DNA of 33,011 nucleotides from an uncultured Clostridia bacterium (GCA_944380935.1 CALWJF010000034.1:1-33011), one strand, 5' to 3'; shown: positions 1,668 through 29,464, counted from the stretch's first letter. A program made the numbers and translations. The notes: generated by a model not told the origin, from the sequence alone.

Positions 1668-2036
1668 ATGACGATTGACGAAGCAAGCGAACGGTATAAA
1701 ATTCCCGTTGAAGTCCTTCGGGAATATGAAAGCTGGGGTTTGTGCGGAGAAGTTGAAAAAGTCATGGGTGCGTGGCAGTATGATGAGCAAGATCTGCAGC
1801 GCCTGAGCGTGATTATGACACTCCACGATATTGGGTTTGGCAACGAAGAGATAGAGGCCTATATGCGCCTTCTTCTGGAAGGAAACTCTACCGAAGAAGA
1901 ACGTTTACAAATGCTGAACAAGAGGCGTGGAACAACTCTTAACGAAATTCACCTTAAGCAGAAACAGTTGGATCGCATGGACTATCTGCGGTACAAAATC
2001 GAAAAGGCACAAAAAGAACGGAGGTTATCAAAATGA
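1668..2036 (+). CDS. MerR family transcriptional regulator
   Basis: A 122-residue protein with an N-terminal MerR winged helix: [25 protein letters not shown] (residues 1-25) is the usual 'tolerate, leave one state, face a colour-coded W-G-L' pattern, and [20 protein letters not shown] (about 39-58) is the second helix pair. Residues 75-120 form a charged dimerisation coiled coil. There is no long C-terminal sensor domain, and no Cys cluster for metal sensing is seen. AGAAAGGAGC precedes the start. The stop TGA overlaps the ATG of the next gene (ATGA), so it is translationally coupled to the flavodoxin lipoprotein. That gene may be its regulated partner. Confidence 0.88.
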
Positions 2037-2467
2037 AAAAATTACTTTCTTTTGTTTGTATGTTGACAATGGTATTTGCTTTGACTGCCTGTGGGGCTCA
2101 GGAAGGGGCGCAGACCTCTGCACCGTCTTCCGAACCTTCTTCCTCTCAGACAACAACCGCCTCAGAATCTGAACCTGCTGAAACTACCCCGCAGCCGACG
2201 GAAACAGAATCCAGCGAGGAAACGGAAAACGCAGAATCCGAAAATGCGGAGCAGGAAGATACAGGTTCTCATGTATTGGTTGCATACTTTTCTGCAACTG
2301 GAAATACAAAGGCCCTGGCAGAATATACGGCAGATGCCCTTGATGCTGATCTTTACGAAATAGTTCCGGCTGAACCCTATACAGATGCCGATCTGGACTA
2401 TTCTCGTCCACTGCCTCATAAGTTCCACCATTGGCAAGGTTGTTTTGCGTTTCTTCCGCCAAAGTAA
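2033..2467 (+). pseudogene. Truncated lipoprotein flavodoxin (3' end replaced)
   Basis: The N-terminus is a lipoprotein signal with lipobox LTAC (Cys20). A Ser/Thr/Glu-rich linker runs to about residue 78, followed by a flavodoxin start: [17 protein letters not shown], the FMN phosphate-binding loop, then [18 protein letters not shown]. Homology stops at codon TAT 2399-2401. The last 21 codons read through the opposite strand of the lipoprotein gene at 2400-2918 and look random. Extracytoplasmic flavodoxins of this type normally run another 100 or so residues, including the second FMN loop, so this product cannot fold as a flavodoxin. AACGGAGG precedes the start, and the gene is coupled to the MerR gene upstream. 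An assembly chimera is the alternative to a genuine deletion. Confidence 0.75.
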
Positions 2468-8408: not shown

Positions 8409-8451
8409 CCCCTTGGATAAGATATAAAGCTATCCAAGGGGGTTCTTTTTT
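8409..8451 (+). terminator. Terminator after uppP
   Basis: CCCCTTGGATA and TATCCAAGGGG form an 11-bp stem around an 11-base loop, followed by GTTCTTTTTT. Confidence 0.85.
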
Positions 8452-8470: not shown

Positions 8471-8499
8471 TTTACAAATCCTACTGCCTTCGTTACAAT
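8471..8499 (+). promoter_or_regulatory. Promoter of the siroheme-protein/ABC transporter operon
   Basis: TTTACA (8471-8476), a 17-base spacer, TACAAT (8494-8499), 32 bases before the first start codon. Confidence 0.6.
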
Positions 8500-8530: not shown

Positions 8531-9478
8531 ATGGAAAAACAAAAACTATCTGCTACAGAAATTGCACGTGTTAAGGGAATGGGATTTTTGCTGAATCGCG
8601 GAACACAGAATTTTTCCGGTCGTATTTTACCGCGTGGCGTAGTTTTTACTGCAGATGAACTGGCGGCCATTTCTGAATGTGCTCGCCGTTTTGGAAATGG
8701 AAACATTGCGTTTACGTCGCGTTTGACTGCAGAAGTCGTTGGAATTCCATATGAAAAAATAGAGGAGGCACGTCAGTTTATTTCGGATAAAGGATTGTGT
8801 TTTGGCGGCACCGGCGCAAAAATACGTCCGGTCACCGCTTGCAAGGGTACAACCTGTGTATATGGAAATTTTGATACTCAAGCGATGGCAAAAGAAGTTT
8901 TTGATCAGTATTATTTGGGCTGGTCTGATGTAAAACTACCGCATAAATTTAAAATTGCAATTGGTGGATGTCCTAATAGCTGCATGAAACCGAGTTTGAA
9001 TGATTTTGGAATTGAAGGCCATCGTGCACCAATATATGATATGCAGAAATGCCGAGGCTGTAAACTATGTCAAGTTGCGCAGCGTTGTCCCATTGGAGCG
9101 ATTAAAATGGAAAATGGAAAAGCGCAAATTGATACGCAGAAGTGCATTAGCTGTGGCGTATGTTTAGGAAAATGTCCTTTTGATGCTTTTGCATCAGATG
9201 CACCAGTTCAATATAAAATTTTTGTAGGAGGAACCTGGGGAAAAACTTCGCGTATGGGAACACCTTTATCTCGTATGGTAGAGCGTGAAGATGTTTTCCC
9301 GCTTTTAGAAAAAACCATGCTTTGGTTTAAGGAAAATGCTTACCAAAAAGAACGGCTTGGCGCAGCAATAGACCGAATTGGTGTAGAAAAATTGGAAAAA
9401 GCACTTTTTGATGAAGATTTGCTTAATAGAAAAGAAGAGATTTTAGCTGCTCCGCTTCGTGTGCGGGATGAGCAATAA
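8531..9478 (+). CDS. AsrC-like siroheme and 4Fe-4S reductase
   Basis: A 315-residue cytoplasmic protein of the nitrite/sulfite reductase superfamily, close in layout to anaerobic sulfite reductase subunit C. Residues 20-90 are the ferredoxin-like half-domain. The siroheme-4Fe-4S ligands are Cys104 and Cys109 (ACKGTTC) with Cys147 and Cys151 (GGCPNSC). An inserted 2x[4Fe-4S] ferredoxin has C174, C177, C180, C186 and C205, C208, C211, C215. The first pair spacing (CX4C) is one shorter than the CX5C of E. coli sulfite reductase. AAAAAGGAG precedes ATG 8531. No AsrA or AsrB gene is near, so its electron donor is unknown. The three genes that follow are an iron-chelate/cobalamin-type ABC importer, with the first starting two bases after this stop, so a role tied to imported metal or tetrapyrrole is possible. 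Sulfite or nitrite reduction is the family default. Confidence 0.85.
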   Translation: MEKQKLSATEIARVKGMGFLLNRGTQNFSGRILPRGVVFTADELAAISECARRFGNGNIAFTSRLTAEVVGIPYEKIEEARQFISDKGLCFGGTGAKIRPVTACKGTTCVYGNFDTQAMAKEVFDQYYLGWSDVKLPHKFKIAIGGCPNSCMKPSLNDFGIEGHRAPIYDMQKCRGCKLCQVAQRCPIGAIKMENGKAQIDTQKCISCGVCLGKCPFDAFASDAPVQYKIFVGGTWGKTSRMGTPLSRMVEREDVFPLLEKTMLWFKENAYQKERLGAAIDRIGVEKLEKALFDEDLLNRKEEILAAPLRVRDEQ

Positions 9479-9479
9479 T

Positions 9480-10460
9480 ATGAAGCGAAGGATTTGTGGG
9501 ATATTTGCTTTTTTGGTTGTATCCGCTATTTTTCTGTGTTCTTGTGCACGTATGGATTATACGGATGAAGAACCGCTTCTTTCTTCTGATACGGATGCAG
9601 AGGAAGCATGGTGTTTTACAGACGCTTTAGGACATGAAGTAGAGCTTACATCCCCGAAGCGGGTTATCTCTTTATATGGATCTTTTGCAGAAACTTGGAT
9701 ATTGGCCGGCGGAACACTCCTTGCAACCACGCAAGACGCAGTAGAAGAACGCGGATTGGAACTGGGTGAATCTGTAGAAATTATCGGGACGGTAAAAAAT
9801 CCGGATACCGAACGAATTGTCGCATTAGATCCGGATTTTGTAATTCTTTCGGCAGATATTGCTGCACATGTTCAATTAGAAGCATTGCTTGACGATATGC
9901 AGATTCCGCATGCCTATTTCCGCGTTGATACGTATCAGGATTATCTTTTTATGCTGGATGGATTTTGTACATTGACTGGGAGACCGGATCTTTATGAAGA
10001 ATATGGCAAATCTGTGGAAGATGAAATTCAACGGATTTTGGAAAAAATTCCTGCGGAGAGTCCCGCGCCTATGGTTCTTTTGATTCGGGCTTATGCAAGC
10101 GGTGCAAAAGCCAAAGGCATGGATAATTTAGCAGGTGTGATTCTTGATGATCTGCATGCGGATAATATTGTGCAGCACCATGAAAGTCTATTGGAAGAAC
10201 TCAGTTTGGAAGCAATCGTAGAAGAAGATCCGGATTTCATTTTTGTCTCTGCCATGGGATCCAGTGAAGAAGCGATGAAAGCGCTGAAGGAGAATCTTAT
10301 GGACAACCCGGCTTGGAATGGTTTGCACGCGGTACAGAATGAGCATTTTATCCTTTTGCCCAAAGAACTTTTTCATTATAAACCAAATGCTAAATGGGCA
10401 GAAAGTTATGCTTACCTTGCACAGCTTTTATATCCGGATGCCATGAATGAAGAAAAGTAA
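9480..10460 (+). CDS. ABC transporter substrate-binding lipoprotein (iron chelate/cobalamin type)
   Basis: A 326-residue class III (helical backbone) binding protein of the Peripla_BP_2 family, which captures ferric chelates, haem or cobalamin outside the membrane. The signal peptide ends at an unusual lipobox, L19-C20-S21-C22. The mature part begins with the typical DALGHEVELTSPKRVISLYG, then has IVALDPDFVILSAD (the 'P-D-L-V' segment) and a C-terminal half with LEAIVEEDPDFIFVSAMG. The frame extends up to 9459, but ATG 9480 gives the basic MKRR start of the signal peptide. ATG 9468, overlapping the previous stop, is the alternative. The ribosome binding site is weak, consistent with coupling to the upstream reductase gene. 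The permease follows 44 bases downstream. Confidence 0.88.
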   Translation: MKRRICGIFAFLVVSAIFLCSCARMDYTDEEPLLSSDTDAEEAWCFTDALGHEVELTSPKRVISLYGSFAETWILAGGTLLATTQDAVEERGLELGESVEIIGTVKNPDTERIVALDPDFVILSADIAAHVQLEALLDDMQIPHAYFRVDTYQDYLFMLDGFCTLTGRPDLYEEYGKSVEDEIQRILEKIPAESPAPMVLLIRAYASGAKAKGMDNLAGVILDDLHADNIVQHHESLLEELSLEAIVEEDPDFIFVSAMGSSEEAMKALKENLMDNPAWNGLHAVQNEHFILLPKELFHYKPNAKWAESYAYLAQLLYPDAMNEEK

Positions 10461-10504
10461 CAAGATGCGCGTTTGTAGGCATCTCAAAACAGTGAGAGGT
10501 TATT

Positions 10505-11542
10505 ATGCGCGGTAAGTGGAAGCCAGAGGCGTTACAGCGATGGATCACAAGCGGACAGAAAAGCCGAAAATGGATTTTATTGGTATTGAGCATCGGTTTG
10601 GTGCTCGCTATTGGAATCAGTCTATGCGTGGGATCTACCTTTGTATCCCCCGTGAAGATTGTTGCAGCTGTGCGAAATGGAGATGGCCAGTCATCTGCTT
10701 ATCGTATTTTTTTCTATATCCGTCTGCCGCGTACAATTGCGGCAGCTTTTTCCGGTGCGGCTTTGGCTGTTAGCGGCGTAATCATACAGGCAGCGTTGCA
10801 TAATGCTCTTGCTGGTCCCAATATTATTGGCGTGAATTCCGGCGCCGGATTTTTTACCTTGCTGACGCTTTATTTATTTCCGACCATGCCGCAATTGGCT
10901 CCGGTTGGCGCCTTTTTTGGTGCGCTCATATGTGTGTTGTTAATTTTTTTTCTATGTGCAGTTACTGGAGCAGGAAGACTGACGGTCATTTTGGAGGGAG
11001 TTGCAATAGGTAGTCTTTTTTCGGCAGGTGTGGATTTTATAAGCGTTTTAGATCCGGATTTGGCGGTAAACGCTTCTGCATTTATGATCGGCGGTTTTTC
11101 TGGTATTGCCTTATCCCGTTTACTTCCAGCTATTTGGCTGATCTTAATCGCGCTGGCTGTGTCCATGCTAAGTGGGAGCGTGCTGAATGTGTTACTGCTT
11201 GGAGATGAGAGTGCGAAGAGTTTGGGAATGCATGTCGGTGCAGTTCGGATTGGACTGTTGGCTATAGCTGCTGTGCTTGCCGGATCGGCAGTAAGTTTCG
11301 GCGGTTTATTAGGATTTGTCGGTTTACTGGTTCCACATATTACCAGACGGATATTGGGCAGCGACAATCGGATTTTATTACCTGCCGCCTGCCTTTTAGG
11401 AGCAGGTTTTGTGCTGGTCTGTGATGTACTCAGCCGCGTTTTATTTGCACCTTTTGAACTACCGGTTGGAATTTTGCTTTCCGCTGTAGGAGCCCCATTT
11501 TTTCTTGTTTTACTGCTTCGAATGCGGCGTGGAAGCGATTGA
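10505..11542 (+). CDS. FecCD/BtuC family ABC transporter permease
   Basis: A 345-residue permease with about ten membrane helices. Family landmarks are RLPRTIAAAFSGAALAVSGVIIQAALHNALAGPNIIGVNSGAGF near residues 75-118, a short GDESAKSLGMHV segment around 236-247 that contacts the ATPase, and GLLGFVGLLVPHITRRILGSDNR near 265-290. GAGAGG lies eight bases before ATG 10505. It would dimerise to form the channel of the importer with the binding protein upstream and the ATPase downstream. Only one permease gene is present, which is normal for BtuC- or FhuB-like homodimers. The ATPase gene starts 22 bases after this stop. Confidence 0.93.
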   Translation: MRGKWKPEALQRWITSGQKSRKWILLVLSIGLVLAIGISLCVGSTFVSPVKIVAAVRNGDGQSSAYRIFFYIRLPRTIAAAFSGAALAVSGVIIQAALHNALAGPNIIGVNSGAGFFTLLTLYLFPTMPQLAPVGAFFGALICVLLIFFLCAVTGAGRLTVILEGVAIGSLFSAGVDFISVLDPDLAVNASAFMIGGFSGIALSRLLPAIWLILIALAVSMLSGSVLNVLLLGDESAKSLGMHVGAVRIGLLAIAAVLAGSAVSFGGLLGFVGLLVPHITRRILGSDNRILLPAACLLGAGFVLVCDVLSRVLFAPFELPVGILLSAVGAPFFLVLLLRMRRGSD

Positions 11543-11564
11543 TTCAAACGATGAGGAAACTAGC

Positions 11565-12338
11565 ATGTTAAAATGGGATCATGTGAGCGCTGGTTACGGT
11601 CCTGTCCCCGTCTTTCAGGATTTGAGTCTCTGTATTGCACCGGGTCTTACTATCGTAATTGGACCAAATGGAAGTGGAAAAAGTACGCTTTTACGTAGTG
11701 CCATCGGGATTATCCCGATACGCGAAGGGCGTGTATTGTTGAATGGACGAGATATACGGGATTTTCATCGGCATGAACTAGCACGACAGATTGCATTTCT
11801 TCCGCAGATGCGTGAAATTCCGGATATGACGGTTGCATCGCTGGTGTTGCATGGAAGATATCCGCATCTTTCCTGGAACCGTCGGCTTACCCTCCGTGAT
11901 CGTGAATATGCCGAACAGGCAATATCAGATATGGGACTGTGGGAATTGCGAACACGTAATTTGCGCACTTTATCTGGCGGAGAACGGCAAAAAGCTTATT
12001 TGGCTATGGCAATCGTGCAGGATACTCCATGGCTGTTGCTGGATGAGCCGACTACGTTCTTGGATATCCGGCATCAGTTTGAAATCTTATCCCGTATCGG
12101 TGACCTTGCACACGATGGGAAAAACATTGTATTGATTTTACACGACCTTGCGCAGGCATTGGAACTTCAGGGACATATTCTTGTGCTGAAAGATGGCGTT
12201 TCACGTTTTTCAGGTACTGCAAATGCATTATATAAAAGCGGTCTGATGGAATCCATATTCGGCGTTATACCCAATCGTTTTTCAGATAACGGACGTCAGG
12301 TTTACTATTTCCGTCCGCTGTCTGAACAAAAAGCATAA
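11565..12338 (+). CDS. FecE/BtuD family ABC transporter ATPase
   Basis: A 257-residue nucleotide-binding subunit. Visible motifs are Walker A GPNGSGKST at about 32-40, Q-loop LPQMRE near 79, signature LSGGERQKA near 138, Walker B WLLLDEPTTFLD near 157-168, and an H-loop in ILHDLAQAL. The frame continues upstream into the permease gene, but ATG 11565 gives the standard MLKWDHVSAGYG start, with GAGGAAAC before it. It powers the importer encoded by the two genes upstream. The last gene of the operon, it ends before a strong two-way terminator. Confidence 0.93.
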   Translation: MLKWDHVSAGYGPVPVFQDLSLCIAPGLTIVIGPNGSGKSTLLRSAIGIIPIREGRVLLNGRDIRDFHRHELARQIAFLPQMREIPDMTVASLVLHGRYPHLSWNRRLTLRDREYAEQAISDMGLWELRTRNLRTLSGGERQKAYLAMAIVQDTPWLLLDEPTTFLDIRHQFEILSRIGDLAHDGKNIVLILHDLAQALELQGHILVLKDGVSRFSGTANALYKSGLMESIFGVIPNRFSDNGRQVYYFRPLSEQKA

Positions 12339-12383: not shown

Positions 12384-12440
12384 AAACAATAGAGCCGATC
12401 ACACGCAAAAATAGTTGCGGTTATCGGCTCTATTGTTTTT
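12384..12440. terminator. Two-way terminator between the ABC and Feo operons
   Basis: AAACAATAGAGCCGAT pairs with ATCGGCTCTATTGTTT (16 bp), with a smaller inner hairpin CGCAA/TTGCG. The plus-strand side continues into T-rich sequence. It separates two convergent operons. Confidence 0.8.
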
Positions 12441-12477
12441 GTTGAAGGAAGTAATATTCTTAATGCAAAATCGTATT

Positions 12478-12659: not shown

Positions 12660-14645
12660 TCAAAATAACATAACAATTCGATAAATGATCGTTCCACAGA
12701 TCCATGCGATCAGACATTGTACAAAAACAATAAGCAAAGTTTTTACGGTTGAGTGCATTTCTCGGCGAATGGATGCAACGGCAGCCACACAAGGCGTGTA
12801 CAACAGTGTGAATGTCAAGAAGCTTGCGGCAGATTGTATAGTAAATAGTGAATTAAGCGGCGCGCCATTCAGCAGTACACCTAAGGTACTTACTACGGCC
12901 TCTTTTGCCATAAAGCCGGTCAATAACGAGGTGGAAACGCGCCAATCTCCAAACCCAAGTGGTCGAAAAATCGGAGCAATCCATTGCCCGATACCTGCCA
13001 AAAGACTATCAGCATTATTGGAAACGATATTTAAACGTGTATCGAAGCTTTGTAAAAACCAGATGATGACGCTGGCAAGAAAAATAACCGTAAAAGCTCT
13101 TCGAATAAAGTCTTTTGCTTTATCCCACATCAATAATCCGGTTGTTTTCAGGGAGGGCATGCGATAACTGGGAAGTTCCATAACAAAAGGAATGGGTTTT
13201 CCTGTAAATATTAGATTTTTTGATACTAAAGCAAATAAAACACCTACCGCAATCCCTCCGGCATATAGAATCATCATGACGAATGCACGATAGTTTGGAA
13301 AAAATGCAGCAGAAAAAACGGTATAAATTGGGATTTTTGCACTGCAGCTCATAAAAGGTGTAAGTAGAATGGTCATTTTTCGATCCCGGTCAGAGGTCAA
13401 TGTTCTTGTAGCCATGACAGCCGGTACCGTACAACCAAAACCAATGAGCATAGGCACGATACTTTTGCCGGATAAACCGATTTTGCGTAAAAGTTTATCC
13501 ATAACAAAAGCTACGCGTGCCATATAGCCAGTGTCTTCTAACATGGAGAGGAAAAAAAACAACACGACAATCAAAGGAAGAAAACTTAAAACATTACCTA
13601 CACCGGCAAAAATCCCATCAATCAGCAAGCTATGTACAACTGGATTCAAGCCATAGGCACTGAGCCATCCATCTACCAAACTCGTTAGAGCCGAGATTCC
13701 CTGTTCCAGCAGTGAACTGAAAAATTCTCCAATTACGTCGAAAGTCAGGTAAAAAATCAATAGCATCACAACCAGGAAAATTGGAATTGAAAAAAAACGA
13801 TGGGTTAAAATATTATCGATCTTTCGACTTCTGACGTATTCCCGACTCTCTCCCCCACGCTTCACGGCATGCGCACAGACCCCTTCAATATAAGCGTAAC
13901 GCATATCAGCGATTGCGGCAAATCGGTCGAGTCCCCGTTCTTTTTCCATTTCTACGATACTATGTTCCGCAAGCTGCAATTCATTTTCATTCAGTTCCAA
14001 GCGTTCAATAATATCGGAATTTCCCTCAATGATATTCATAGCTGCATATCTGGAGAAAATACCTAAACGTTCCGCATGATCTTCTATGATATGAGTTACG
14101 GCATGGATACATCGGTGTACGGGTCCAGGCTTACAAAAATCGTAAATTGCAGGGGCCTGCCGATTTTGCGCGGTTTTAATTGCAATTTCAATCAGTTCAT
14201 CTACGCCTTCATTTTTTGCTGCAATAATTGGAACTGCTGGTACCCCAAGTTCCTCAGAAAGGCGTTGGATGTCAATAGAACCGCCGGCAGCACGAACTTC
14301 GTCCATTAAGTTTAATGCTAATACCATTGGTATGTGCATTTCAATGAGTTGTAAAGTAAGATAAAGATTGCGTTCGATGTTTGTCGCATCCAAAATATTG
14401 ATGATTGCATCTGGTTTGTGTTGTAAAACGAAATCACGTGTTACAATTTCTTCTGCCGAGTAGGGCCGCAGCGAATAGATGCCCGGAAGATCAACAACCT
14501 CACAATTTTTATGTCCACGTACCTGACCGGATTTTTGATCTACTGTAACCCCTGGAAAATTTCCAACATGTTGATTGGAACCGGTAAGTTGATTAAATAA
14601 GGTGGTTTTTCCACAATTTTGATTTCCAACCAATGCAAAAATCAT
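12660..14645 (-). CDS. feoB: Ferrous iron transporter FeoB
   Basis: A 661-residue protein of normal clostridial length that imports Fe2+ across the cytoplasmic membrane. The N-terminal G domain has G1 GNQNCGKT (7-14), the switch region NFPGVTVDQKSG, G3 DLPGIYSL and G4 NLMDE. A helical spacer region runs to about residue 270. The membrane part holds the two Gate motifs, including SFLPLIVVLFFFLSMLEDTGYMARVAF and IGFGCTVPAVMATRTL, with the conserved Cys in GFGCTVP. The ATG overlaps the feoA stop (ATGA), and the Cys-rich partner follows. Expression is probably controlled by the operator upstream of feoA. Confidence 0.97.
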   Translation of the reverse strand: MIFALVGNQNCGKTTLFNQLTGSNQHVGNFPGVTVDQKSGQVRGHKNCEVVDLPGIYSLRPYSAEEIVTRDFVLQHKPDAIINILDATNIERNLYLTLQLIEMHIPMVLALNLMDEVRAAGGSIDIQRLSEELGVPAVPIIAAKNEGVDELIEIAIKTAQNRQAPAIYDFCKPGPVHRCIHAVTHIIEDHAERLGIFSRYAAMNIIEGNSDIIERLELNENELQLAEHSIVEMEKERGLDRFAAIADMRYAYIEGVCAHAVKRGGESREYVRSRKIDNILTHRFFSIPIFLVVMLLIFYLTFDVIGEFFSSLLEQGISALTSLVDGWLSAYGLNPVVHSLLIDGIFAGVGNVLSFLPLIVVLFFFLSMLEDTGYMARVAFVMDKLLRKIGLSGKSIVPMLIGFGCTVPAVMATRTLTSDRDRKMTILLTPFMSCSAKIPIYTVFSAAFFPNYRAFVMMILYAGGIAVGVLFALVSKNLIFTGKPIPFVMELPSYRMPSLKTTGLLMWDKAKDFIRRAFTVIFLASVIIWFLQSFDTRLNIVSNNADSLLAGIGQWIAPIFRPLGFGDWRVSTSLLTGFMAKEAVVSTLGVLLNGAPLNSLFTIQSAASFLTFTLLYTPCVAAVASIRREMHSTVKTLLIVFVQCLIAWICGTIIYRIVMLF

Positions 14646-19919: not shown

Positions 19920-21368
19920 TTATACGGTGATTTTTAAGCAACTAACAAATTCGCATGGTAATTCCTGAGGCAACTTAATAGTTAAAATCCCAAAAGATTG
20001 CGCAAATTCACATCTTCCAAAACCTAACAATTCGACTGATTGCGCTCTTTCTGTGAGTGTACGTATTACTGCTACATTGTTTTCCGGCTGTGCCATAAGG
20101 AATGCATAAACAACATTTCCCTTTGCAGTAAACCGATAGTCCCCAGGCAGCCACTCAACCTTTGTTTCTTTAAATCCTTCCGGATTAACGCGGCTAATCC
20201 CCTCTCCAGAAACATGCCAAGGACGTGTGTCATAAATTGCTTCTCCATTGATGGCAAACCAGGCTCCCAGTTTTTCGAGAATAAATTCTGTTTCTTTGTC
20301 GATTGTACCATCCGGACGTTGTAAGACATTCAAAAGCATGTTCCCGTTTTTGGCTACAATATCTACAAGCATTTCAATAATATGTTTTGGGGTTTTGAAT
20401 TGCTGGCGTACATCATAGAACCAGTTTCCGATACAGGTATCTGTATGCCATGGTTGTTCAGCGATTTCTGTCAGTTGTGATTTTTCTATATCCAAAGTAC
20501 CGATGCTATAGAATTCCGGACGACGATCTTTTTGTAAGTAAACGACCTGATTTTCACCTTTTTCAGCAGCTGAGACATTATAGTAATAAGACAGAAACTC
20601 CAGCCCTTTTTGATACAGCAAATCCGTTTCTGTCGATTCGTGCATCTTTCCAAAGGGAAGTCCGCCGTCGGAGTAAATTAGATCGGGGTGGTACAGATCG
20701 ACCATTTCACGGCAACAGTCCAGCCAATACTGCTGGAATTGCTGATTCTTTGTATACCACCAGTCGATACTATTGGAGTTATCATGACAATGTTCATAAT
20801 TATTATGATAAAAATCGCGGTATTCCGGGTCATTCCCATCGTAAGGAACGCCTGCATATGGTCCATATTGATCCGAGCCTTTGTTCACACTCCACCAGGA
20901 AAAGGATGCACCCAGATGTTCGCTCATGCCGAAGGGCATGTTGTATTTTTGCGCAGCTTTTTGCCAAAGACCACAAATATCTTTATGCGGGCCTACTTGA
21001 ACGGAATTAAAACGATTAATTCGCGATGCATAATTGAAAAAATGGTCATGGTGGGAAGCCTGTGCCATAAAATAACGTGCACCGGATTTATAATACAACT
21101 GCATCAATCCGTCCGGATCAAAATTCTCAGCATGCCAAAGCTTTACCAAATCTTTATAACCAAATTCAGAGGGATGGCCATAATGACGCAAATGATAAAG
21201 ATACTGCGCAGTACCCTGAATATACATATTGCGGGCATACCAGTCTCCGTACATCGGAACACTTTGCGGACCCCAGTGGCTCCATATTCCGAATTTTGCA
21301 TTACGGAACCATTCGGGACATTGGTATTGGCGCAACGAAGTAAAATTTGGTTCAAATTTTTTTGCCAT
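19920..21368 (-). CDS. GH29 family alpha-L-fucosidase
   Basis: A 482-residue glycoside hydrolase of family 29, which removes terminal alpha-L-fucose with retention. The opening PEWFRNAKFGIWSHWGPQSVP (residues 18-38) and the active-site patterns ASHHDHF (104-110), SEHLGASFSWW (149-159) and DLIYSDGG are all clear, with Asp234 the expected nucleophile. A small C-terminal beta domain follows from about 370. There is no signal peptide, so the enzyme works on sugars already imported. The start ATG 21368 has AAAGGAG upstream. It is the last gene of a three-gene minus-strand cassette, 17 bases after the oxidoreductase, and no transporter is in the cassette. Confidence 0.88.
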   Translation of the reverse strand: MAKKFEPNFTSLRQYQCPEWFRNAKFGIWSHWGPQSVPMYGDWYARNMYIQGTAQYLYHLRHYGHPSEFGYKDLVKLWHAENFDPDGLMQLYYKSGARYFMAQASHHDHFFNYASRINRFNSVQVGPHKDICGLWQKAAQKYNMPFGMSEHLGASFSWWSVNKGSDQYGPYAGVPYDGNDPEYRDFYHNNYEHCHDNSNSIDWWYTKNQQFQQYWLDCCREMVDLYHPDLIYSDGGLPFGKMHESTETDLLYQKGLEFLSYYYNVSAAEKGENQVVYLQKDRRPEFYSIGTLDIEKSQLTEIAEQPWHTDTCIGNWFYDVRQQFKTPKHIIEMLVDIVAKNGNMLLNVLQRPDGTIDKETEFILEKLGAWFAINGEAIYDTRPWHVSGEGISRVNPEGFKETKVEWLPGDYRFTAKGNVVYAFLMAQPENNVAVIRTLTERAQSVELLGFGRCEFAQSFGILTIKLPQELPCEFVSCLKITV

Positions 21369-21385
21369 ATTTACAACTCCTTTTC

Positions 21386-22525
21386 TTATTTTTCCAGAGT
21401 AGAAAGATCAAAAGGATATTTTGAAAGATCGGTCCGTTTTTTCAGTTCCTGATAAAAAAGTTCATAATCAAAAGGAATTTCCACCATACGACCAAGCCAG
21501 GCTGACAAATACATGGCATTGGACAAAGTCAGCTCATTTAAACCTTCTTCTCCGCGCGCAATCAGTGGTTCTCCCCGAAGCAGATGTGCGGCAAAAGCAT
21601 TAAGCACACCTGCGTGCTGCTCATTTTTCCCATCTGTTTCCACTTCTGTGACGGTTAGTTCCGGATGTGCAAAGGGAATGGTACTGGAGCGGGAAAATTC
21701 CTGCTCGGAAACCGGTGATTTCCACATTGTAAGTTTTCCGTTTTCACTAACTAGTTTTCCACAATCGAAGTCGATTTCAAATCGGTTTGTTCCGGCAATA
21801 TCTCCAGTTGTAGTGACAAATGTACCGGTTGCACCATTTGCATATTCGACATAGGCTGTTACTTCATCTTCTACTTCAATATTGTGCCACTTTCCAATTC
21901 CCATTCGTGCATACACGCGCACAGGCATCCCGCAGATCCACTGCCAGTAATCTAAATTGTGAGGGCACTGGTTGAGCAGGACACCACCGCCTTCCCCGCC
22001 CCAGCTGGCGCGCCATAGCCCGGAATCATAATAGGCCTGATTGCGGTACCAGTCCGTAATGATGACATTGGAACGACGAATTGCGCCTAATTCGCCGGAT
22101 TGGACAATTTCCCGCATTTTCCGGTAAATACAATTTGTTCGCTGATTAAACATTAATGCGTATACAGCTTTTGATTTTGCTGCGGCCGCATTCATGCGTT
22201 TTACCTGCCGTGTGTATACACCGGCTGGTTTTTCGGAAATAGTATGAATATTGCGTGCAAGCGCTTCTACTACATATTTTTCATGAAAATAATGGGGTAT
22301 AGCTACGAGTACAGCGTCTATTTTCCCTGAATCGAGCATGTGTTCTGCATTATCGAATAATGCAATGCTTTCAGGATAATTTTGTCTGGCATATGCAAGT
22401 TTTTCCGGGTCACAATCAGCCAGCGCGCTGAGTTCAATTTCCGGACATTTTCCGCTCAGAATGTTTCCTATATGGGTTTTGCCGATATTTCCAATTCCGA
22501 TGATCCCGAGTCTGACTTTTTCCAT
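21386..22525 (-). CDS. Gfo/Idh/MocA family oxidoreductase
   Basis: A 379-residue NAD(P)-dependent dehydrogenase. The Rossmann motif GIIGIGNIGKTHIGNIL is at residues 8-24. EKPAGVYTRQ (near 97-106) carries the conserved Lys of the EKP motif. GEGGGVLLNQCPHNLDYWQWICG (near 178-200) carries the His of the catalytic region. Such enzymes oxidise or reduce sugars, inositols or glycosides. Its substrate is probably the sugar released by, or prepared for, the fucosidase downstream. GGAGGATAC precedes ATG 22525. It lies 12 bases after the isomerase/epimerase gene, so the three form one transcript. Confidence 0.93.
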   Translation of the reverse strand: MEKVRLGIIGIGNIGKTHIGNILSGKCPEIELSALADCDPEKLAYARQNYPESIALFDNAEHMLDSGKIDAVLVAIPHYFHEKYVVEALARNIHTISEKPAGVYTRQVKRMNAAAAKSKAVYALMFNQRTNCIYRKMREIVQSGELGAIRRSNVIITDWYRNQAYYDSGLWRASWGGEGGGVLLNQCPHNLDYWQWICGMPVRVYARMGIGKWHNIEVEDEVTAYVEYANGATGTFVTTTGDIAGTNRFEIDFDCGKLVSENGKLTMWKSPVSEQEFSRSSTIPFAHPELTVTEVETDGKNEQHAGVLNAFAAHLLRGEPLIARGEEGLNELTLSNAMYLSAWLGRMVEIPFDYELFYQELKKRTDLSKYPFDLSTLEK

Positions 22526-22537
22526 ATGTATCCTCCT

Positions 22538-23305
22538 TTATTGTAAGCCTTTTGCACGTAAATTACGATAACTTATCTCCAGACATGTAAAAGGATCTTC
22601 TCCATAGCAGTCGTCCTGCTCTACCAGAAGATATTCGGTTCCGGCATCTTCTGCGGCGGATAGGATCGCGTCGAAATTCATATTGCCCTCACCTACTGGT
22701 GCCATGCGCATCCCTTTCAGGCCGTCCCCCAGGACAAAAGCCATATCTTTTAGGTGAATATTGCGGACACGGCCGGAAAGTTTTCGCAGCCATGCTGCCG
22801 CATCGGCCCCGCCGGCTTGTGCCCAATAGGTATCGAATGTGATTGCCAATTCGCGCGGCGTAAAATCTTGCAGCAATCGGTCAAAGAATAATTCATGACC
22901 CTTCCCTGTCCTGGCAAACTCAATATTATGATTGTGATAAGCAAGCTGCATTCCTGCATCTGCAATGTTCTGCGCAACTGGTTTAAAGGTTCGAACGAAT
23001 TCATCATAAGCTTCCATTCCACCCGGCGCCATTCCGATCCCAATAAAGCGGCATCCAAATGTACGGTGTGCTTGGATAACTTGTTGGGTCTGTTGAAGAA
23101 TGCGGGTAGGATTTGTGTGAGTAATAACGCAATGGAGTCCGTTTTCCTGAAGCTTATCCCGAAGCCATGCTGCTTCAAAATCGCAAGTCCCGGAAACTTG
23201 AACAGCAGTATAACCAATATCTGCTACTTTTTTTAGCGCTTCGGCAAAGCCGTCCAGCGTTTTGGTGTATTCCCGAAGCGTATACAATTGAGCGCCGATA
23301 ATCAT
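22538..23305 (-). CDS. Sugar phosphate isomerase/epimerase (xylose isomerase-like TIM barrel)
   Basis: A 255-residue TIM-barrel protein of the AP-endonuclease-2/xylose isomerase-like superfamily. It begins MIIGAQLYTLREYTKTLDGF. It holds the metal-ligand patterns seen in this group: YHNHNIEF, TFDTYWAQAGG (Asp), IHLKDM (His/Asp) and LLVEQDD (Glu). Members interconvert ketoses or act with Gfo/Idh/MocA enzymes in inositol- and 3-keto-sugar pathways. Pairing with the oxidoreductase immediately downstream is typical. AAGGAGATC precedes ATG 23305. It is the first gene of the cassette. No convincing promoter was found in the 62 bases between it and the uxaC terminator. Confidence 0.9.
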   Translation of the reverse strand: MIIGAQLYTLREYTKTLDGFAEALKKVADIGYTAVQVSGTCDFEAAWLRDKLQENGLHCVITHTNPTRILQQTQQVIQAHRTFGCRFIGIGMAPGGMEAYDEFVRTFKPVAQNIADAGMQLAYHNHNIEFARTGKGHELFFDRLLQDFTPRELAITFDTYWAQAGGADAAAWLRKLSGRVRNIHLKDMAFVLGDGLKGMRMAPVGEGNMNFDAILSAAEDAGTEYLLVEQDDCYGEDPFTCLEISYRNLRAKGLQ

Positions 23306-23367
23306 ACCTGATCTCCTTGTATGTTTGAATGAAACTTATACTTTGAAGCATTTAAAAACATTTAGAG

Positions 23368-23412
23368 AAAGCGGCAAAAATCCACAGGACGCCTGCATAT
23401 TTTTGCCGCTTT
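23368..23412 (-). terminator. Terminator after uxaC
   Basis: AAAGCGGCAAAAAT and ATTTTTGCCGCTTT form a 14-bp stem around a 17-base loop, 18 bases beyond the uxaC stop. On the minus strand TTTCTCTAAATG follows. It separates uxaC from the fucosidase cassette. Confidence 0.65.
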
Positions 23413-23430
23413 TAAAATAACAATATCAGA

Positions 23431-24789
23431 TTAATCCAGCATCGTTTTCTTTACATTGCCATAGCAGACCGCTGAAACCAGCCGTTGTGCCAATTCATAG
23501 GAATACTCATCTGCTTCTACCCAGGAACCGACAAGCTCGCAGAAAATACGACGGAAATAGTCGTGCCGCGGATAAGAGAAAAAGCTTCGGCTATCGGTAA
23601 GCATGCCGAGGAAAGAGCCAATATAACCGGTTTCTGCGATGGTTGCACAAACTTCACGAATTCCGCGTTTGTGGTCGAGCATCCACCATGCCGCACCCAC
23701 GATAACATTACGGAAACAACCGGCAATACCGGACATGAGCGCAGTCAGGGCGGGATTCATGGCATATAAAATAGTTTTGGGCAAACCTCCAGCCAGTTCG
23801 ATTGCATCGAGTAAACGAATCATGTCTTTCGGATTGATCTGCCCCATGGTATCGCCACCGACATCCGGACCTAATTCCTGCAAAAGTTTAGTATTGGCGT
23901 TACGAACGGTTGCAACATGCAGCTGCATTACAAGGTCGCGAACGGCATATTCCCGACCAAGGAAAAGATACATATTCCCAAGGAAAGCGCTAAACGCTGC
24001 AGCATCCACAGGCTTACCGGCAATAGCGGCTGCAAATGCAGCTTCCGCCTCTTCGTCAGTCCCGATACGATCCGGAAATGCTTCCAGACCAATATCGGTA
24101 ATCCGGCATCCATGCGCTTTGAAAAAATCAAGCCGGGCAGAAAGCGCAGCTTTTAACTGTGCAACAGTTTGAATTTCCATCCCGGAAGCGGCAGAAAGGC
24201 GGGTTATATATTCCCGATAGCCAGGCGCTTGCAAGTTCATTGCGGCATCTGGGCGGAAAGTTGGTGATACACGGGTTGCCATATTTGGATCCGATGCCAA
24301 TGCAATATGGTATTCTAGCGTATCGGCAGGATCATCGGTTGTAGCTACATATTCAACATTTAATTTTTTCATAACCTTTCGCGGGCTGAGCTGCTCTTTT
24401 TCAATAATTTCATTGCAGGCTATCCAAATGCGTTCTGCACTGCTGCGGTCAAGTAACTCGGTTATGCCGAAAAATGCATCCAATTCCATGCGCGTCCACT
24501 GCGCAACTGGATTCCCGGCAGCCAACTCTAGCGCCTGCGCATAAGCACAAAATTTATCATGCCAGGAAGCAGAACCGGTAATAAGGGATTCGTCAATTCC
24601 TGCAGCACGCATAACGCGCCATTTATAATGATCTCCGCCAAGCATAACCTGCCCGACGTTGGTAAAAGGCTTGTCCTCGTAAATTTCTTTTGGGGAAAGA
24701 TGGCAGTGATAGTCAATAATCGGCAGGCTACGGACCTGCTGGTACAGCATTCTTCCCGTCTGATTTGCAATCATATAGCTGTCTTTCAT
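23431..24789 (-). CDS. uxaC: Glucuronate isomerase
   Basis: A 452-residue member of the amidohydrolase-fold uronate isomerase family, which converts D-glucuronate to D-fructuronate and D-galacturonate to D-tagaturonate. DYHCHLSP (residues 26-33) carries the two metal-binding His. VEYVATTDDPADTL near 148-161 is also conserved, and WWMLDHKRGIREV and SFFSYPRHDYFRRI toward the C-terminus are strongly characteristic. The length is slightly under the usual 465-470 but no motif is missing. AAGGATGG lies before ATG 24789. It has its own promoter and terminator. Its pathway partners kdgA, kdgK and uxuB lie about 5 kb away on the other strand. Confidence 0.95.
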   Translation of the reverse strand: MKDSYMIANQTGRMLYQQVRSLPIIDYHCHLSPKEIYEDKPFTNVGQVMLGGDHYKWRVMRAAGIDESLITGSASWHDKFCAYAQALELAAGNPVAQWTRMELDAFFGITELLDRSSAERIWIACNEIIEKEQLSPRKVMKKLNVEYVATTDDPADTLEYHIALASDPNMATRVSPTFRPDAAMNLQAPGYREYITRLSAASGMEIQTVAQLKAALSARLDFFKAHGCRITDIGLEAFPDRIGTDEEAEAAFAAAIAGKPVDAAAFSAFLGNMYLFLGREYAVRDLVMQLHVATVRNANTKLLQELGPDVGGDTMGQINPKDMIRLLDAIELAGGLPKTILYAMNPALTALMSGIAGCFRNVIVGAAWWMLDHKRGIREVCATIAETGYIGSFLGMLTDSRSFFSYPRHDYFRRIFCELVGSWVEADEYSYELAQRLVSAVCYGNVKKTMLD

Positions 24790-24822
24790 TTTAAATGCAC
24801 CATCCTTGAATTTGGTATTTTT

Positions 24823-24851
24823 ATTTTAACATATTTCCCATCGGGATTCAA
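24823..24851 (-). promoter_or_regulatory. Promoter of uxaC
   Basis: On the minus strand TTGAAT (24851-24846), a 17-base spacer, TAAAAT (24828-24823). Confidence 0.6.
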
Positions 24852-24937
24852 TCGCTCTCATTCATTTTCCCTCTATTCAAGAGGAAAAAAGCATGTTACA
24901 ATACCAGTTGTGAGAAATTTACTGTCAGGAGGTTCCT

Positions 24938-25777
24938 ATGAATGCGGAACTTTTAAATACCTTGAAACCGAAAATTCATGAAGTAGGAATTAAACATGGG
25001 GTTGTTAATCGTGTAAAAAATCTTATTGCCAATACCAAGCCAAATCCGGAAAAATTATTTGTGATTGAAGGAATTTGGGCGCATAATAAAGCGGAAATAA
25101 CACAACTCCCTATTGTCAGTTTTCTGATTTGTCCAGAGTATATTTATACACCAGAATCCGAAGCGCTTGTCATGCGTTTTGCTGAAAAAGTGGAATGTGT
25201 TTATGTTGTATCCGCAAAAACATTTGACAGGCTCAGTGAGCGGGATAAACCGGATGGGCTTTTATCGATCTGCCGTTTCCCGGTAAAACGGCCTGAGGAT
25301 CTCGTTTTGCCGGAACGGGCAGGCGTCGTTGTACTAGATGGATTGGAAATTCCAGGGAATATCGGGACGATTATCCGTACTTGTGACGGAGCTGCGATTG
25401 ATGCGATTTTGGTATGCAATCGTCGAGCTCGTCTTTCTCATCCAAAAGTAATTAAGGGCAGTATGGGCGCAGCATTTCGAATCCCTATTGTGGAATTTGA
25501 AACAGGAGTGGATTGTTCTGCCTGGCTGCAGAAAAACGGATTTTCCATCTATCTTGCAGATACCCGTGCTGAAAAAACCTATTACGAATACGATTATTCC
25601 GGACGAAGCGCATTGATAATGGGCAGCGAGCGCTATGGGATTCATAAAGAGTGGTATCAAAATAATCCCAATATGTTGATGATTCCTATGTTGGGAATCT
25701 GCGATTCATTAAATGTTGGCGTGGCTGCCTCAATTCTGATTTACGAGATGAGCTTGAAAATTAAGAGAATGAAATAA
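24938..25777 (+). CDS. SpoU/TrmH family RNA 2'-O-methyltransferase
   Basis: A 279-residue SPOUT methyltransferase that should methylate a ribose 2'-OH in tRNA or rRNA with S-adenosylmethionine. Residues 1-120 form a substrate-binding region (GVVNRVKNLI, FVIEGIWAHNKAE, LSERDKPDGLLSIC). The knot motifs are LDGLEIPGNIGTIIRTCDGAA (near 134-154), IMGSERYGI (near 224-232) and IPMLGICDSLNVGVAASILIYE (near 247-268), the last holding the conserved Ser-Leu-Asn. Motif 2 has GSERYG in place of the more common GxExxG with small residues. AGGAGG precedes ATG 24938. Single gene, divergent from uxaC. Confidence 0.92.
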   Translation: MNAELLNTLKPKIHEVGIKHGVVNRVKNLIANTKPNPEKLFVIEGIWAHNKAEITQLPIVSFLICPEYIYTPESEALVMRFAEKVECVYVVSAKTFDRLSERDKPDGLLSICRFPVKRPEDLVLPERAGVVVLDGLEIPGNIGTIIRTCDGAAIDAILVCNRRARLSHPKVIKGSMGAAFRIPIVEFETGVDCSAWLQKNGFSIYLADTRAEKTYYEYDYSGRSALIMGSERYGIHKEWYQNNPNMLMIPMLGICDSLNVGVAASILIYEMSLKIKRMK

Positions 25778-25896
25778 ACTCTTGTAAAGACGCCGAAAAT
25801 AAATTATAAGTTTGCTTCTTTTTTAGCTTTTTTTCTATAGTATTTATCGTAAGTTCATACTATACTAAGAATAATTATTATAGACGAGGTGTGGGA

Positions 25897-26973
25897 ATGG
25901 AACAGAAAAAACGGTCGGCTTTCCGCAGATTTTTGGATAAGCAGGGCATTACGCTTTCTCCGAAAGTGTATTTTATTGACGCTATGGGATCACTTGCAAT
26001 GGGCTTGTTTGCATCGCTGTTGATCTCTACGATTTTCAGTACATTGGGGAGTTGGACAGGTTTTTCTCTTTTTATAGAGGCGGCTGATTTTACACAGGCG
26101 GTTACAGGTGCTGCTCTTGGTGTCTCGGTTGCTTATGCATTGAAAGCGCCGCCGCTTGTATTATTTTCTGCTGCGTCTGTGGGCTATGCGGGCAACGCTT
26201 TAGGCGGAACCTTTATGCTTGACGGTGTGGAAAAGGCATTGACTGCAGGCCCGGCAGGTGCGTTTATTGCGGCGATTATCGCGGTTGAACTCGGGAAATT
26301 GGTATCTAAAACTACAAAAGTTGATATTTTGGTTACGCCAACAGTTACGATTTTATCCGGTTTATTGATTGCAAAATTGGTTTGTCCATGGATTGCTTAC
26401 ATTATGTATGCTTTGGGAAGTTTTGTTAATACCGCAACGGAGATGCAGCCTTTTATTATGGGAATCCTAGTTTCGGTGATCGTTGGTATCGTGCTTACGC
26501 TTCCGATCAGTTCTGCTGCACTGTGCGCTATGATCGGGATATCCGGTCTTGCGGGAGGCGCGGCAACGGCTGGGTGTTGTGCGCAAATGATTGGATTTGC
26601 CGTTATTAGTTTCCGGGAAAACCGTTGGGGCGGACTGGTAGCACAAGGTCTTGGAACGTCTATGCTTCAGATGGGCAATATTTGTCGGAAACCAGCCATA
26701 TGGATCGCACCGACTTTGGCTTCTGCGATTACTGGGCCTTTGGCTACCTTACTGTTTAAATTAGAATGTACGGGAGTTTCTGCTGGTATGGGTACTTGCG
26801 GACTTGTTGGTCCGCTTGGGATCATTAGTGCAATGGGTACAGAAAGCGTCACGATGTGGATTGGCCTTATACTTATCTGTTTTATTCTCCCTGCAGTATT
26901 TTCGTTTATAATCAACGAAGTTTTGCGGAAAATTGGTCTGATTAAAACGGGAGATATGAAACTGGATCTTTAA
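25897..26973 (+). CDS. PTS EIIC-like membrane protein (PTS_EIIC_2 type), without EIIA/EIIB
   Basis: A 358-residue polytopic protein with about ten membrane helices, rich in Gly and Ala. FLDKQGITLSPKVYFIDAMGSLAMGLFASLLISTIF and the later GMGTCGLVGPLGIISAMG match my recollection of the PTS_EIIC_2 family. These are related to sugar-channel EIIC subunits but usually lack fused or adjacent phosphorylation domains. No EIIA, EIIB or HPr gene is nearby, so phosphotransfer-driven sugar uptake is unproven. GTG 25891 opens the frame, but GAGGTG (25884-25889) is correctly spaced only for ATG 25897. The gene stands alone and ends in a hairpin. Confidence 0.82.
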   Translation: MEQKKRSAFRRFLDKQGITLSPKVYFIDAMGSLAMGLFASLLISTIFSTLGSWTGFSLFIEAADFTQAVTGAALGVSVAYALKAPPLVLFSAASVGYAGNALGGTFMLDGVEKALTAGPAGAFIAAIIAVELGKLVSKTTKVDILVTPTVTILSGLLIAKLVCPWIAYIMYALGSFVNTATEMQPFIMGILVSVIVGIVLTLPISSAALCAMIGISGLAGGAATAGCCAQMIGFAVISFRENRWGGLVAQGLGTSMLQMGNICRKPAIWIAPTLASAITGPLATLLFKLECTGVSAGMGTCGLVGPLGIISAMGTESVTMWIGLILICFILPAVFSFIINEVLRKIGLIKTGDMKLDL

Positions 26974-27006
26974 TTTAAGCGTTATCCTGAAAATTTTAAT
27001 ATCCAA

Positions 27007-27050
27007 ATCGAAGCCGTACCGTCGGGATTCTTCAGCGGTACGGCTTCGAT
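27007..27050 (+). terminator. Hairpin terminator after the EIIC-like gene
   Basis: ATCGAAGCCGTACCG and CGGTACGGCTTCGAT form a perfect 15-bp stem around 14 bases. The T-tract is short (GTTTC). Confidence 0.7.
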
Positions 27051-27097
27051 GTTTCGGCCCTGTATATTGTGTTTTTCCTATGGGTAAGGGTAATAAA

Positions 27098-27126
27098 TTG
27101 ACTTTTATTTATAAATACGTTATACT
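27098..27126 (+). promoter_or_regulatory. Promoter of the zinc-ribbon membrane protein gene
   Basis: TTGACT (27098-27103), a 17-base spacer, TATACT (27121-27126). Confidence 0.7.
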
Positions 27127-27172
27127 GAATCCCAAAAGGGCTAGGCTTGCTAGAATTGGAAAAGGAGAAATC

Positions 27173-27559
27173 ATGAAAAGTATTAAACCTGGTCGGGCTC
27201 CATCGATGATGAGCGCTGCCATGTCGGTTATTGTTGGTATTTTTGGAGTTGTCTGGACAATAATTGCCGCAAATATCAGCGGGATAATGGCAATTTTTGG
27301 AATAATATTTATAATTATTGCAATTGTACAAGCGGTTTACCATTATAAGAATGCGACAAGCCAAAATCGCTATTCGTCTTTTGATGTGGTTGACAGCGCT
27401 GAGGAACCAGACCCGCTTAATAACCGGTATGGACAGAGCAGTAGCAGCGGCCCTGTTTCTCAGGAAGAGCAGGCTGCATCGGCTGGATTTTGTCCATACT
27501 GCGGCACGCCAATGAAAAAGGGATTTGTATTTTGCCCGAAATGCGGAAAACGCAGATGA
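27173..27559 (+). CDS. Small membrane protein with C-terminal zinc ribbon
   Basis: A 128-residue protein. Two membrane helices span about 13-34 and 38-56 (SVIVGIFGVVWTIIAANI, IMAIFGIIFIIIAIVQAVY). A polar Ser-rich linker follows, then a zinc ribbon at the end: FCPYCGTPMKKGFVFCPKCGKR, CX2C repeated (residues 106-128). The start ATG 27173 is set by AAAGGAG and by the promoter at 27098-27126, with a start site past the earlier in-frame ATG. Many Firmicutes carry such 'zinc-ribbon domain' membrane proteins with no assigned function. It lies between a promoter and a terminator as a single gene. Confidence 0.8.
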   Translation: MKSIKPGRAPSMMSAAMSVIVGIFGVVWTIIAANISGIMAIFGIIFIIIAIVQAVYHYKNATSQNRYSSFDVVDSAEEPDPLNNRYGQSSSSGPVSQEEQAASAGFCPYCGTPMKKGFVFCPKCGKRR

Positions 27560-27658
27560 GAATTCAATGCGAAAGAAATTTGTTTAAAATTATGAGAGAT
27601 TGCCTGTGAGATGCAATACGACGATAGCATAACCAGTCTTTGCAGTATGGAACGGAAT

Positions 27659-27697
27659 AAAAACTGCCTTGTTTTGAAGACAAGGCAGTTTTTATGT
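27659..27697. terminator. Two-way terminator
   Basis: AAAAACTGCCTTG and CAAGGCAGTTTTT form a 13-bp stem with a nine-base loop. T-runs on both strands suit the two convergent genes on either side. Confidence 0.85.
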
Positions 27698-27720
27698 ACG
27701 GATATAGATAAAAGTCTTAT

Positions 27721-28671
27721 TTATAACCCCATAGTTTCCATAATTGTTTGAAACCGGGTATAGGCATGCTGTGCACCTTGACGGTTAGGATATTTTCGGT
27801 AAAATGCTTCGATATACAAAATCAGATTTAAATAAATATCGTACCATAAAATACGTTCCTTTTGCTGCTCGGAAAAATGCTCAATACCATATCCCCTTAA
27901 GAAATTGGTATTCCATGTAAAACTGCGGAAATTGTATTCCATTAATGGATCTCCCCAAAGTGCGCGTTCCCAGTCAATAATTCCAACAATATCATTATTC
28001 TGGATTAGCAGATTTCCATCCCAAGTATCCCAATGGATCAGGCATGGCGTATTTACTTCCATAAAAATAGCTTTCCTGGTTTGCAAATATGCAAGAATAC
28101 ATGCTGGTTCCCTCCCAAGAGAGATGTTTTGAGTCTGTGCGTTTTGTAAAAGCGCTTCCATCATTTGAAAAAAAGAGGAAAACCAGTCTGAAGTACAGAA
28201 CAGCCCGGAAAGTAATCCGTAGTGTTTGCCATGAATTTGGTGCAGGGATTTCAAAATCCTTCCAAGATCGAAATAAAGTTTTTGAAGCACAATAGAATCC
28301 AGATGGCTTTTAATTTTTGCAAGACTTTCACCGGACAAACATTCCATAATAAAAAATGGGCTGTCGCAAAGCGTACATTGATCATTTGCTACGTAAACTT
28401 GCGCCACCGGAATTTCGGTATTCGTCTGTGCCAGGCGCATTGCGGCCACCTCGGATTGCATCATCCCTTTTTCGTATTGTAACAGGTTGTCTTCGCTGGA
28501 AGGTGCAATCTTTATAATTGCGGTTCGTCCATCGGCCAGACGCAGTTTATATGCAGCATTACAATATCCTTCGGTTAGTTCTTCTGCCTCTAAAAGATTG
28601 ACGGATAAGGTTTGCAACACCATTTTCGAAAGCTGCTGAAAATTCTTTTTGTTTTTGGTTGCGCTTTCCAT
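27721..28671 (-). CDS. Aminoglycoside phosphotransferase (APH) family kinase
   Basis: A 316-residue small-molecule kinase of the APH/choline kinase fold. The N-lobe has YCNAAYKLRLADGRTAIIKIAP with the ATP-binding Lys. ECLSGESL is the hinge. The catalytic loop HWDTWDGNLLIQ (Brenner motif HxDxxxxN) is followed by IVGIIDWERALWGDPLMEY, which carries the metal-binding Asp. The frame opens at GTG 28680, but AAGGGGAG directly abuts that codon, so ATG 28671, eight bases further, is preferred. Substrates in this family range from antibiotics to choline, fructosamines and homoserine. Resistance should not be assumed. Divergent from the Nudix gene. Confidence 0.88.
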   Translation of the reverse strand: MESATKNKKNFQQLSKMVLQTLSVNLLEAEELTEGYCNAAYKLRLADGRTAIIKIAPSSEDNLLQYEKGMMQSEVAAMRLAQTNTEIPVAQVYVANDQCTLCDSPFFIMECLSGESLAKIKSHLDSIVLQKLYFDLGRILKSLHQIHGKHYGLLSGLFCTSDWFSSFFQMMEALLQNAQTQNISLGREPACILAYLQTRKAIFMEVNTPCLIHWDTWDGNLLIQNNDIVGIIDWERALWGDPLMEYNFRSFTWNTNFLRGYGIEHFSEQQKERILWYDIYLNLILYIEAFYRKYPNRQGAQHAYTRFQTIMETMGL

Positions 28672-28719
28672 CACCAGCACTCCCCTTTTGAACGGTTATT
28701 TATATATTCGATTTTCGCA

Positions 28720-28748
28720 ATTATATCAAAAATCAGCAATGGGTTCAA
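28720..28748 (-). promoter_or_regulatory. Promoter of the APH-type kinase gene
   Basis: On the minus strand TTGAAC (28748-28743), a 17-base spacer, TATAAT (28725-28720). Confidence 0.7.
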
Positions 28749-29385: not shown

Positions 29386-29464
29386 TATTTTTAACAGACG
29401 AACCTGAAAGTATCAAAGGGAAAGACAATTTTTAAGGTGGCTGTGCAAAAACAGGAAAGAATAC

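Follow-up and report, generated by a model that had tools for sequence, protein, structure and literature searches.

Why should a stand-alone siroheme reductase be encoded together with an ABC importer of the metal-chelate class? The question is raised by a 33,011-nucleotide stretch of DNA from an uncultured Clostridia bacterium (GCA_944380935.1, CALWJF010000034.1:1-33011; hereafter the window, meaning the whole stretch that was analysed), in which a four-gene unit on the plus strand (8531-12338) encodes the reductase, a lipoprotein binding protein, a FecCD permease and an ATPase (Table 1). A first-pass annotation had reported this arrangement, and the open reading frames and their Pfam families agree with its description; it had the reductase stop and the binding-protein start adjacent, as they are, with a spacing of two bases, which we measure as one. 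It offered three readings of the pairing: the enzyme might free metal from a chelate that is imported, process an imported tetrapyrrole reductively, or have the importer as a supply line for its own cofactor.

Table 1. Positions of the genes of the unit and of the putative signals around it, counted along the window.
Feature	Position	Strand	Basis or remark
Terminator-like hairpin (8409-8441) and T-run, between uppP (bacA) and the operon	8409..8448	+	RNA fold -18.8 kcal/mol, z -3.3
Promoter-like site TTTACA-17-TACAAT, 5' of the reductase gene	8471..8499	+	10/12 consensus matches
Siroheme reductase, AsrC/Fsr-like, 315 aa	8531..9478	+	NIR_SIR with inserted 2x[4Fe-4S] ferredoxin; Pfam
Lipoprotein substrate-binding protein, predicted siroheme binder	9480..10460	+	Peripla_BP_2; ATG 9480
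FecCD-type (type II) ABC importer permease	10505..11542	+	PF01032 E 3.2e-81
ABC importer ATPase	11565..12338	+	PF00005 E 1.1e-26; FecE-like, under cut-off; ATG 11565
Terminator-like hairpin (12388-12434) and T-run, after the operon	12388..12441	+	RNA fold -26.2 kcal/mol, z -6.0

The gaps within the unit are of 1, 44 and 22 nt. An alternative GTG start for the binding protein (9459) is less likely than the ATG listed, and an alternative TTG for the ATPase (11505) would overlap the permease gene. The flanking hairpins were not called by a terminator scan and were found by folding both sites directly, while the promoter-like site is a consensus match only, such sites being no commoner in the region than in shuffled sequence. 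From the promoter-like site, the hairpins and the short gaps, the four genes are likely to form one transcript. Upstream lies uppP/bacA and downstream, on the opposite strand, feoB (Pfam, NCBIfam); the latter encodes a FeoB ferrous iron transporter (12660-14645, minus strand) convergent with the operon. FeoB relatives occur near the reductase in only three other loci, and the proximity is probably coincidental. An Rfam scan of the window found no riboswitch or other RNA family, so that RNA regulation offers no hint of a ligand. Elsewhere in the window, 19920-33011 holds genes for sugar and sugar-acid metabolism (alpha-L-fucosidase, a GFO/IDH/MocA oxidoreductase, glucuronate isomerase UxaC, KDPG aldolase, a PfkB kinase, a member of the mannitol dehydrogenase family and PTS EIIC), and a short open reading frame that follows a MerR regulator (2033-2467, plus strand) aligns, from its own residue 81 onwards, with no more than the initial 45 positions of a flavodoxin profile and is possibly a truncated or frameshifted flavodoxin.

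The reductase comprises NIR_SIR_ferr and NIR_SIR domains and two 4Fe-4S sites, and matches PF01077 and PF03460 above their cut-offs, which makes it a NIR_SIR protein, the only one found in the window's genome. Among solved structures the reductase half of Fsr (7npa, E 1.9e-32) comes nearest, followed by DsrAB. AsrC (TIGR02912) is the best NCBIfam match, at 127.8 bits against a cut-off of 324.1; the score lies so far under the cut-off that the label AsrC-like, as first given, is apt and plain AsrC would be wrong. The cysteine spacings had likewise been read correctly: CX4C (CKGTTC), CX3C (GCPNSC) and the CX2CX2CX5C of the first ferredoxin motif are invariant in a seven-member alignment, and a regular-expression survey recovered the exact three-motif combination in 79 of 91 homologues, the others deviating or escaping the pattern. 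The cofactor-binding residues are conserved, with C104, C109 and C147 kept in 83 of 83 homologues and C151 in 82. With the C-terminal half of Fsr, AsrC, DsrA and DsrB the protein shares the NIR_SIR fold, the inserted ferredoxin domain and the siroheme-[4Fe-4S] cysteines. Unlike Fsr, with which its 315 residues align confidently only in the C-terminal half, it is not fused to an N-terminal F420H2-oxidase domain and has CX4C in place of CX5C; its first ferredoxin motif sets it apart from Fsr, AsrC and DsrAB alike. It differs from AsrC also in its company, as neither the window nor the conserved neighbours at 88 loci showed any AsrA- or AsrB-like gene, in keeping with the absence of both from the original description. 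One homologue, in the genus g83 (L218 in G191), does without the whole ferredoxin insert, and in three more g83 genomes the match to the reductase profile is likewise limited to about residues 2-164; the insert thus appears to be dispensable.

As to substrate, sulfite in MjFsr is bound by Arg355, Arg423, Lys460 and Lys462 (PMC10229431). The last three correspond to R99, K139 and K141 here, whereas the equivalent of R355, placed by sequence alignment, is Ser29, a position occupied by Ser or Asn in 80 of 83 homologues and by Arg in none. The enzyme thus keeps three of the four positively charged residues, and the Fsr authors took such replacements in Group II Fsr to signal a different specificity (PMC10229431). 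With one of the four residues missing, sulfite is a likely substrate, not a certain one.

Is the pairing of reductase and importer peculiar to this genome? A scan of 84,980 species genomes returned at least 590 relatives of the reductase, the best 80 loci of which were kept; among 86 distinct loci (these and same-family loci) 44 have the importer within about 5 kb. The linkage is therefore not unique to one genome, and the neighbourhood survey that the first-pass annotation had proposed comes out in favour of a conserved association. The importer usually lies downstream on the same strand, and divergent (L034, L035, L067, L079, L092) and convergent (L103, L117) layouts also occur, as does an order with the importer genes first and the reductase last (L216 and L217, genus g32). 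This survival of the adjacency through changed gene orders points to selection on the linkage. Viral contigs, scanned as well, yielded no relatives.

It had also been stated that close homologues lying with AsrAB or with sulfite-pathway genes would speak against a functional unit. No AsrAB were seen beside them, as noted above; siroheme-biosynthesis genes or a gene for a CoA-disulfide-reductase/rhodanese-like protein do adjoin some homologues, for the most part ones that lack the importer. Judging from the cluster-representative sequences, some reductases have hemA, hemL, hemB, sirC and cobA as neighbours. In related loci, mostly in pathway-bearing genomes, a CoA-disulfide-reductase-like flavoprotein either precedes the reductase or is fused to it, often with a LysR gene in divergent orientation. 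Neighbours of these two kinds suggest a role in the reduction of sulfite or sulfane sulfur. The fusions, of about 850-866 residues, place the reductase behind a CoA-disulfide-reductase-like FAD domain (L037:7681-10242, L087, L104, L110, L114, L119, L221, L222) and include, as judged by eye, a rhodanese-like segment; in Blautia-type loci their parts are separate neighbouring genes accompanied by a divergent LysR gene.

The importer and the siroheme biosynthetic pathway are, with few exceptions, mutually exclusive. We compared 58 genomes, including 39 in which the reductase is linked to the importer and 18 in which it is unlinked. HemB, the second common step of tetrapyrrole synthesis, was found in one of the 39 importer-linked genomes as against 16 of the 18 others, SUMT exceeded its cut-off in three as against 16, and SirC was detected in three as against 17 (two of the 17 weakly). 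CbiK was present in only five of 38 importer-linked genomes, and CbiX in none of the 38 searched. Among the bacteria with this unit is a cultured one, Anaerotignum lactatifermentans DSM 14214 (L046), in which HemB was not found. In the window's genome HemB, SUMT, SirC, CbiK and CbiX were all not found, which at 87% completeness is only suggestive; many of the other genomes are metagenome-assembled too, single absences there are weak, and it is the pattern over many genomes that carries the argument.

A profile built from 37 binding-protein sequences and run on 71 genomes gave a bimodal result: E was at most 1e-92 in each of the 39 linked genomes and also in G007 and G062, where the importer's binding protein is present though apart from the reductase. 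Outside these, a second, weaker paralogue was matched at 3e-51 (G032), and all remaining matches were at 1e-25 or worse. By this profile the binding protein occurred in none of 16 HemB-positive unlinked genomes and in none of 13 family members without the reductase. Among the departures from the pattern, G048 has both the siroheme pathway and the importer, and G061, in this targeted set, has the reductase without HemB and without the importer.

The same relation holds when genomes are chosen regardless of the importer. In a draw of 295 genomes of the same order, each at least 80% complete, the binding protein was present in 44 of 48 genomes with the reductase and without HemB, and in 0 of 32 with both; among genomes without the reductase it was present in 5 of 204 without HemB and in 0 of 11 with HemB. 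Association of the binding protein with HemB among reductase genomes (Fisher p 2.7e-18) and with the reductase among HemB-negative genomes (p 1e-38) is accompanied by a within-family permutation p of about 5e-6, obtained by shuffling within the four families in which both states occur. In a tree of 83 reductases the importer and HemB traits each change at least 14 times, and about seven of nine well-supported independent pairs run in the same direction, with none opposite (p 0.016). Even single genera hold both states, as in g51 (importer in G125, HemB in G162) and g73 (importer in G169, HemB in G296), where the latter two genomes both have a fused reductase of one kind. Among enzyme-bearing genomes the importer is found where the pathway is missing and not where the pathway is retained, and this lends strong support to the supply line among the three roles first offered.

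The exceptions in the draw are of two kinds. Four genomes have the reductase with neither HemB nor importer; the congeners of two have HemB (G115, G275), those of a third have the importer (G152), and the fourth (G083) is unexplained. Five have the binding protein without this reductase. One of them (G326) encodes a NirA-like siroheme enzyme together with SirC and CobA-HemD beside the importer (L212), which supports the view that the importer follows siroheme and not this one reductase. Three others (G259, G318, G342) have CbiK, in G342 directly after the importer, and in the last (G196) the binding protein is an orphan, without adjoining permease or ATPase genes.

We suggest, with a probability of somewhat more than three in four, that the unit is a siroheme-scavenging operon whose importer feeds the reductase its own cofactor. 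In this gut-type clostridial bacterium, apparently unable to make tetrapyrroles, siroheme (or the compound that comes nearest to it) that other microbes release would be captured by the lipoprotein and brought across the membrane by the FecCD permease and ATPase, import being the presumed direction; and the cytoplasmic AsrC/Fsr-like apo-reductase would presumably take it up on delivery. With siroheme and its own [4Fe-4S] clusters the enzyme could then carry out a low-potential reduction, of which the conversion of sulfite to sulfide is the most likely, ferredoxin being the putative electron donor.

What the importer might bind is suggested by comparative evidence throughout. It is of type II (BtuCD/FecCD-type), with a Peripla_BP_2 protein, a FecCD permease and an ABC_tran ATPase encoded together, in line with the iron-chelate/cobalamin class first assigned to it. 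Its proteins fall under the cut-off of every named NCBIfam subfamily among the matches listed; scores were 68.2 bits against 298.65 for the haem-binding IsdE model (TIGR03659), 203.7 against 334 for BtuC (PRK03784) and 22.6 against 234 for BtuF (PRK03379). Its Peripla_BP_2 lipoprotein, FecCD permease and ATPase resemble those of the type II tetrapyrrole importers for haem (IsdEF/HmuTUV) and cobalamin (BtuFCD), but its distribution is tied to the loss of siroheme synthesis and its binding protein has a basic signature of its own. In that protein, where E118 and E251 are also conserved, the signature consists of a basic R-x6-K/R-x-K and KPNxRW, with basic residues at R210, K/R217, K219, K308 and R/K312 (333-aa numbering). 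Nearly every binding protein encoded near the reductase or SirC retains this cluster, as do the two unlinked ones; the g32 proteins retain only part of it, and paralogues from other contexts have lost it. An orphan binding protein at L209:6180-7160 keeps arginine 210 and has lost most of the basic signature. Uroporphyrinogen, sirohydrochlorin and siroheme have eight carboxylates each, so a basic pocket is to be expected in a protein that binds siroheme, and the conserved cluster would be suited to such an octacarboxylate.

The shared carboxylates also mean that one pocket could fit all of these compounds, and the cargo could conceivably be sirohydrochlorin, uroporphyrinogen III or uroporphyrin, a metal-free or earlier tetrapyrrole from which the cell completes siroheme. 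Some importers do share an operon with SirC and CobA(-HemD) in genomes that yielded no HemB (L111, L144, L212). Such loci tie the importer to further parts of the siroheme pathway, which speaks for siroheme scavenging, but an earlier octacarboxylic tetrapyrrole may be what is imported there. The one at L144:7931-12755 is the second importer of its genome (G033), shares its operon with SirC and a CobA-HemD fusion, and may have such a cargo. At L211:6220-12534 the importer has behind it a CbiK-like sirohydrochlorin chelatase gene and another type II importer; its genome yielded neither this reductase nor HemB. Uroporphyrin III has been detected in human stool, as cited in PMC6461909. Against this, neither the window's genome nor most linked genomes yielded SUMT, SirC, CbiK or CbiX, so that known enzymes could not complete an imported precursor there; we therefore regard precursor import as unlikely for the importer at large, and finished siroheme as the simplest predicted cargo in most linked genomes. 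A corrin precursor is a candidate cargo for a paralogous, more distantly related importer (L215:7462-10457, also L148) that adjoins a CbiA-like cobalamin gene; searches of its genome (judged as G032, apparently the same genome) detected no HemB, SUMT or SirC.

A general haem or cobalamin (corrinoid) importer serving tetrapyrrole auxotrophs, with no specific tie to the reductase, would suit the fold and family relatives, which include IsdE, the Listeria protein 5joq and BtuF, and HemB-negative bacteria that use B12 must import it. The AF2 model of the binding protein (pLDDT 91.6) has the haem-binding IsdE as its best fold match (Z 24.2), with siderophore-binding folds nearly as high (about 22-22.6); the predicted fold is compatible with a tetrapyrrole, and as the gap is small we do not use the fold search as proof of ligand and hold sequence conservation to be more ligand-specific. 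However, the importer is missing from 199 of the 204 HemB-negative genomes without the reductase, its linkage to the reductase has been rebuilt in several gene orders, and it accompanies the reductase even where the two are not adjacent (the G007 and G062 case); general B12 or haem import is thus very improbable, and we reject it. That the importer brings in the reductase's substrate, or a metal chelate or tetrapyrrole for it to reduce, is suggested by the operon structure and the low-potential enzyme, but the two reductive roles of the first-pass annotation predict an importer regardless of biosynthesis and a substrate importer should not depend on cofactor synthesis, so that its absence from 32 of 32 HemB-positive reductase genomes in the draw leaves all of these unsupported and, in our judgement, scarcely credible.

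Type II importers for haem and cobalamin are known; a siroheme-scavenging operon would add a predicted new ligand to a known kind of transporter. In the collection of papers searched we found none on siroheme uptake, import or a siroheme transporter, and we know of no bacterium that has been shown to take up siroheme. The nearest precedent is the prediction, tested with ALA, of tetrapyrrole precursor salvagers for cobamide synthesis (Shelton et al., PMC6461909). As far as the passages of that paper bear on the matter, these are likewise mostly Firmicutes without the first tetrapyrrole steps that are predicted to depend on outside precursors; unlike the bacteria considered here, they were defined for cobamide synthesis, no importer is named for them in those passages, and the word siroheme is absent from its text.

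Siroheme auxotrophy served by a dedicated importer would be a new biological idea. We think it somewhat probable that finished siroheme is shared in gut communities, that the importer lets clostridia whose tetrapyrrole synthesis has been lost keep siroheme enzymes, and that importer and pathway have replaced each other many times. If so, siroheme, like haem and the cobamides, would be a cofactor that passes between microbes, genome-based predictions would be wrong to take the lack of a siroheme pathway for a lack of siroheme enzymes, and sulfide formation by many gut clostridia would depend on the tetrapyrrole synthesis of their neighbours. The hypothesis also provides a testable ligand prediction for many importers that generic family models now place only as of iron-chelate, haem or cobalamin type.
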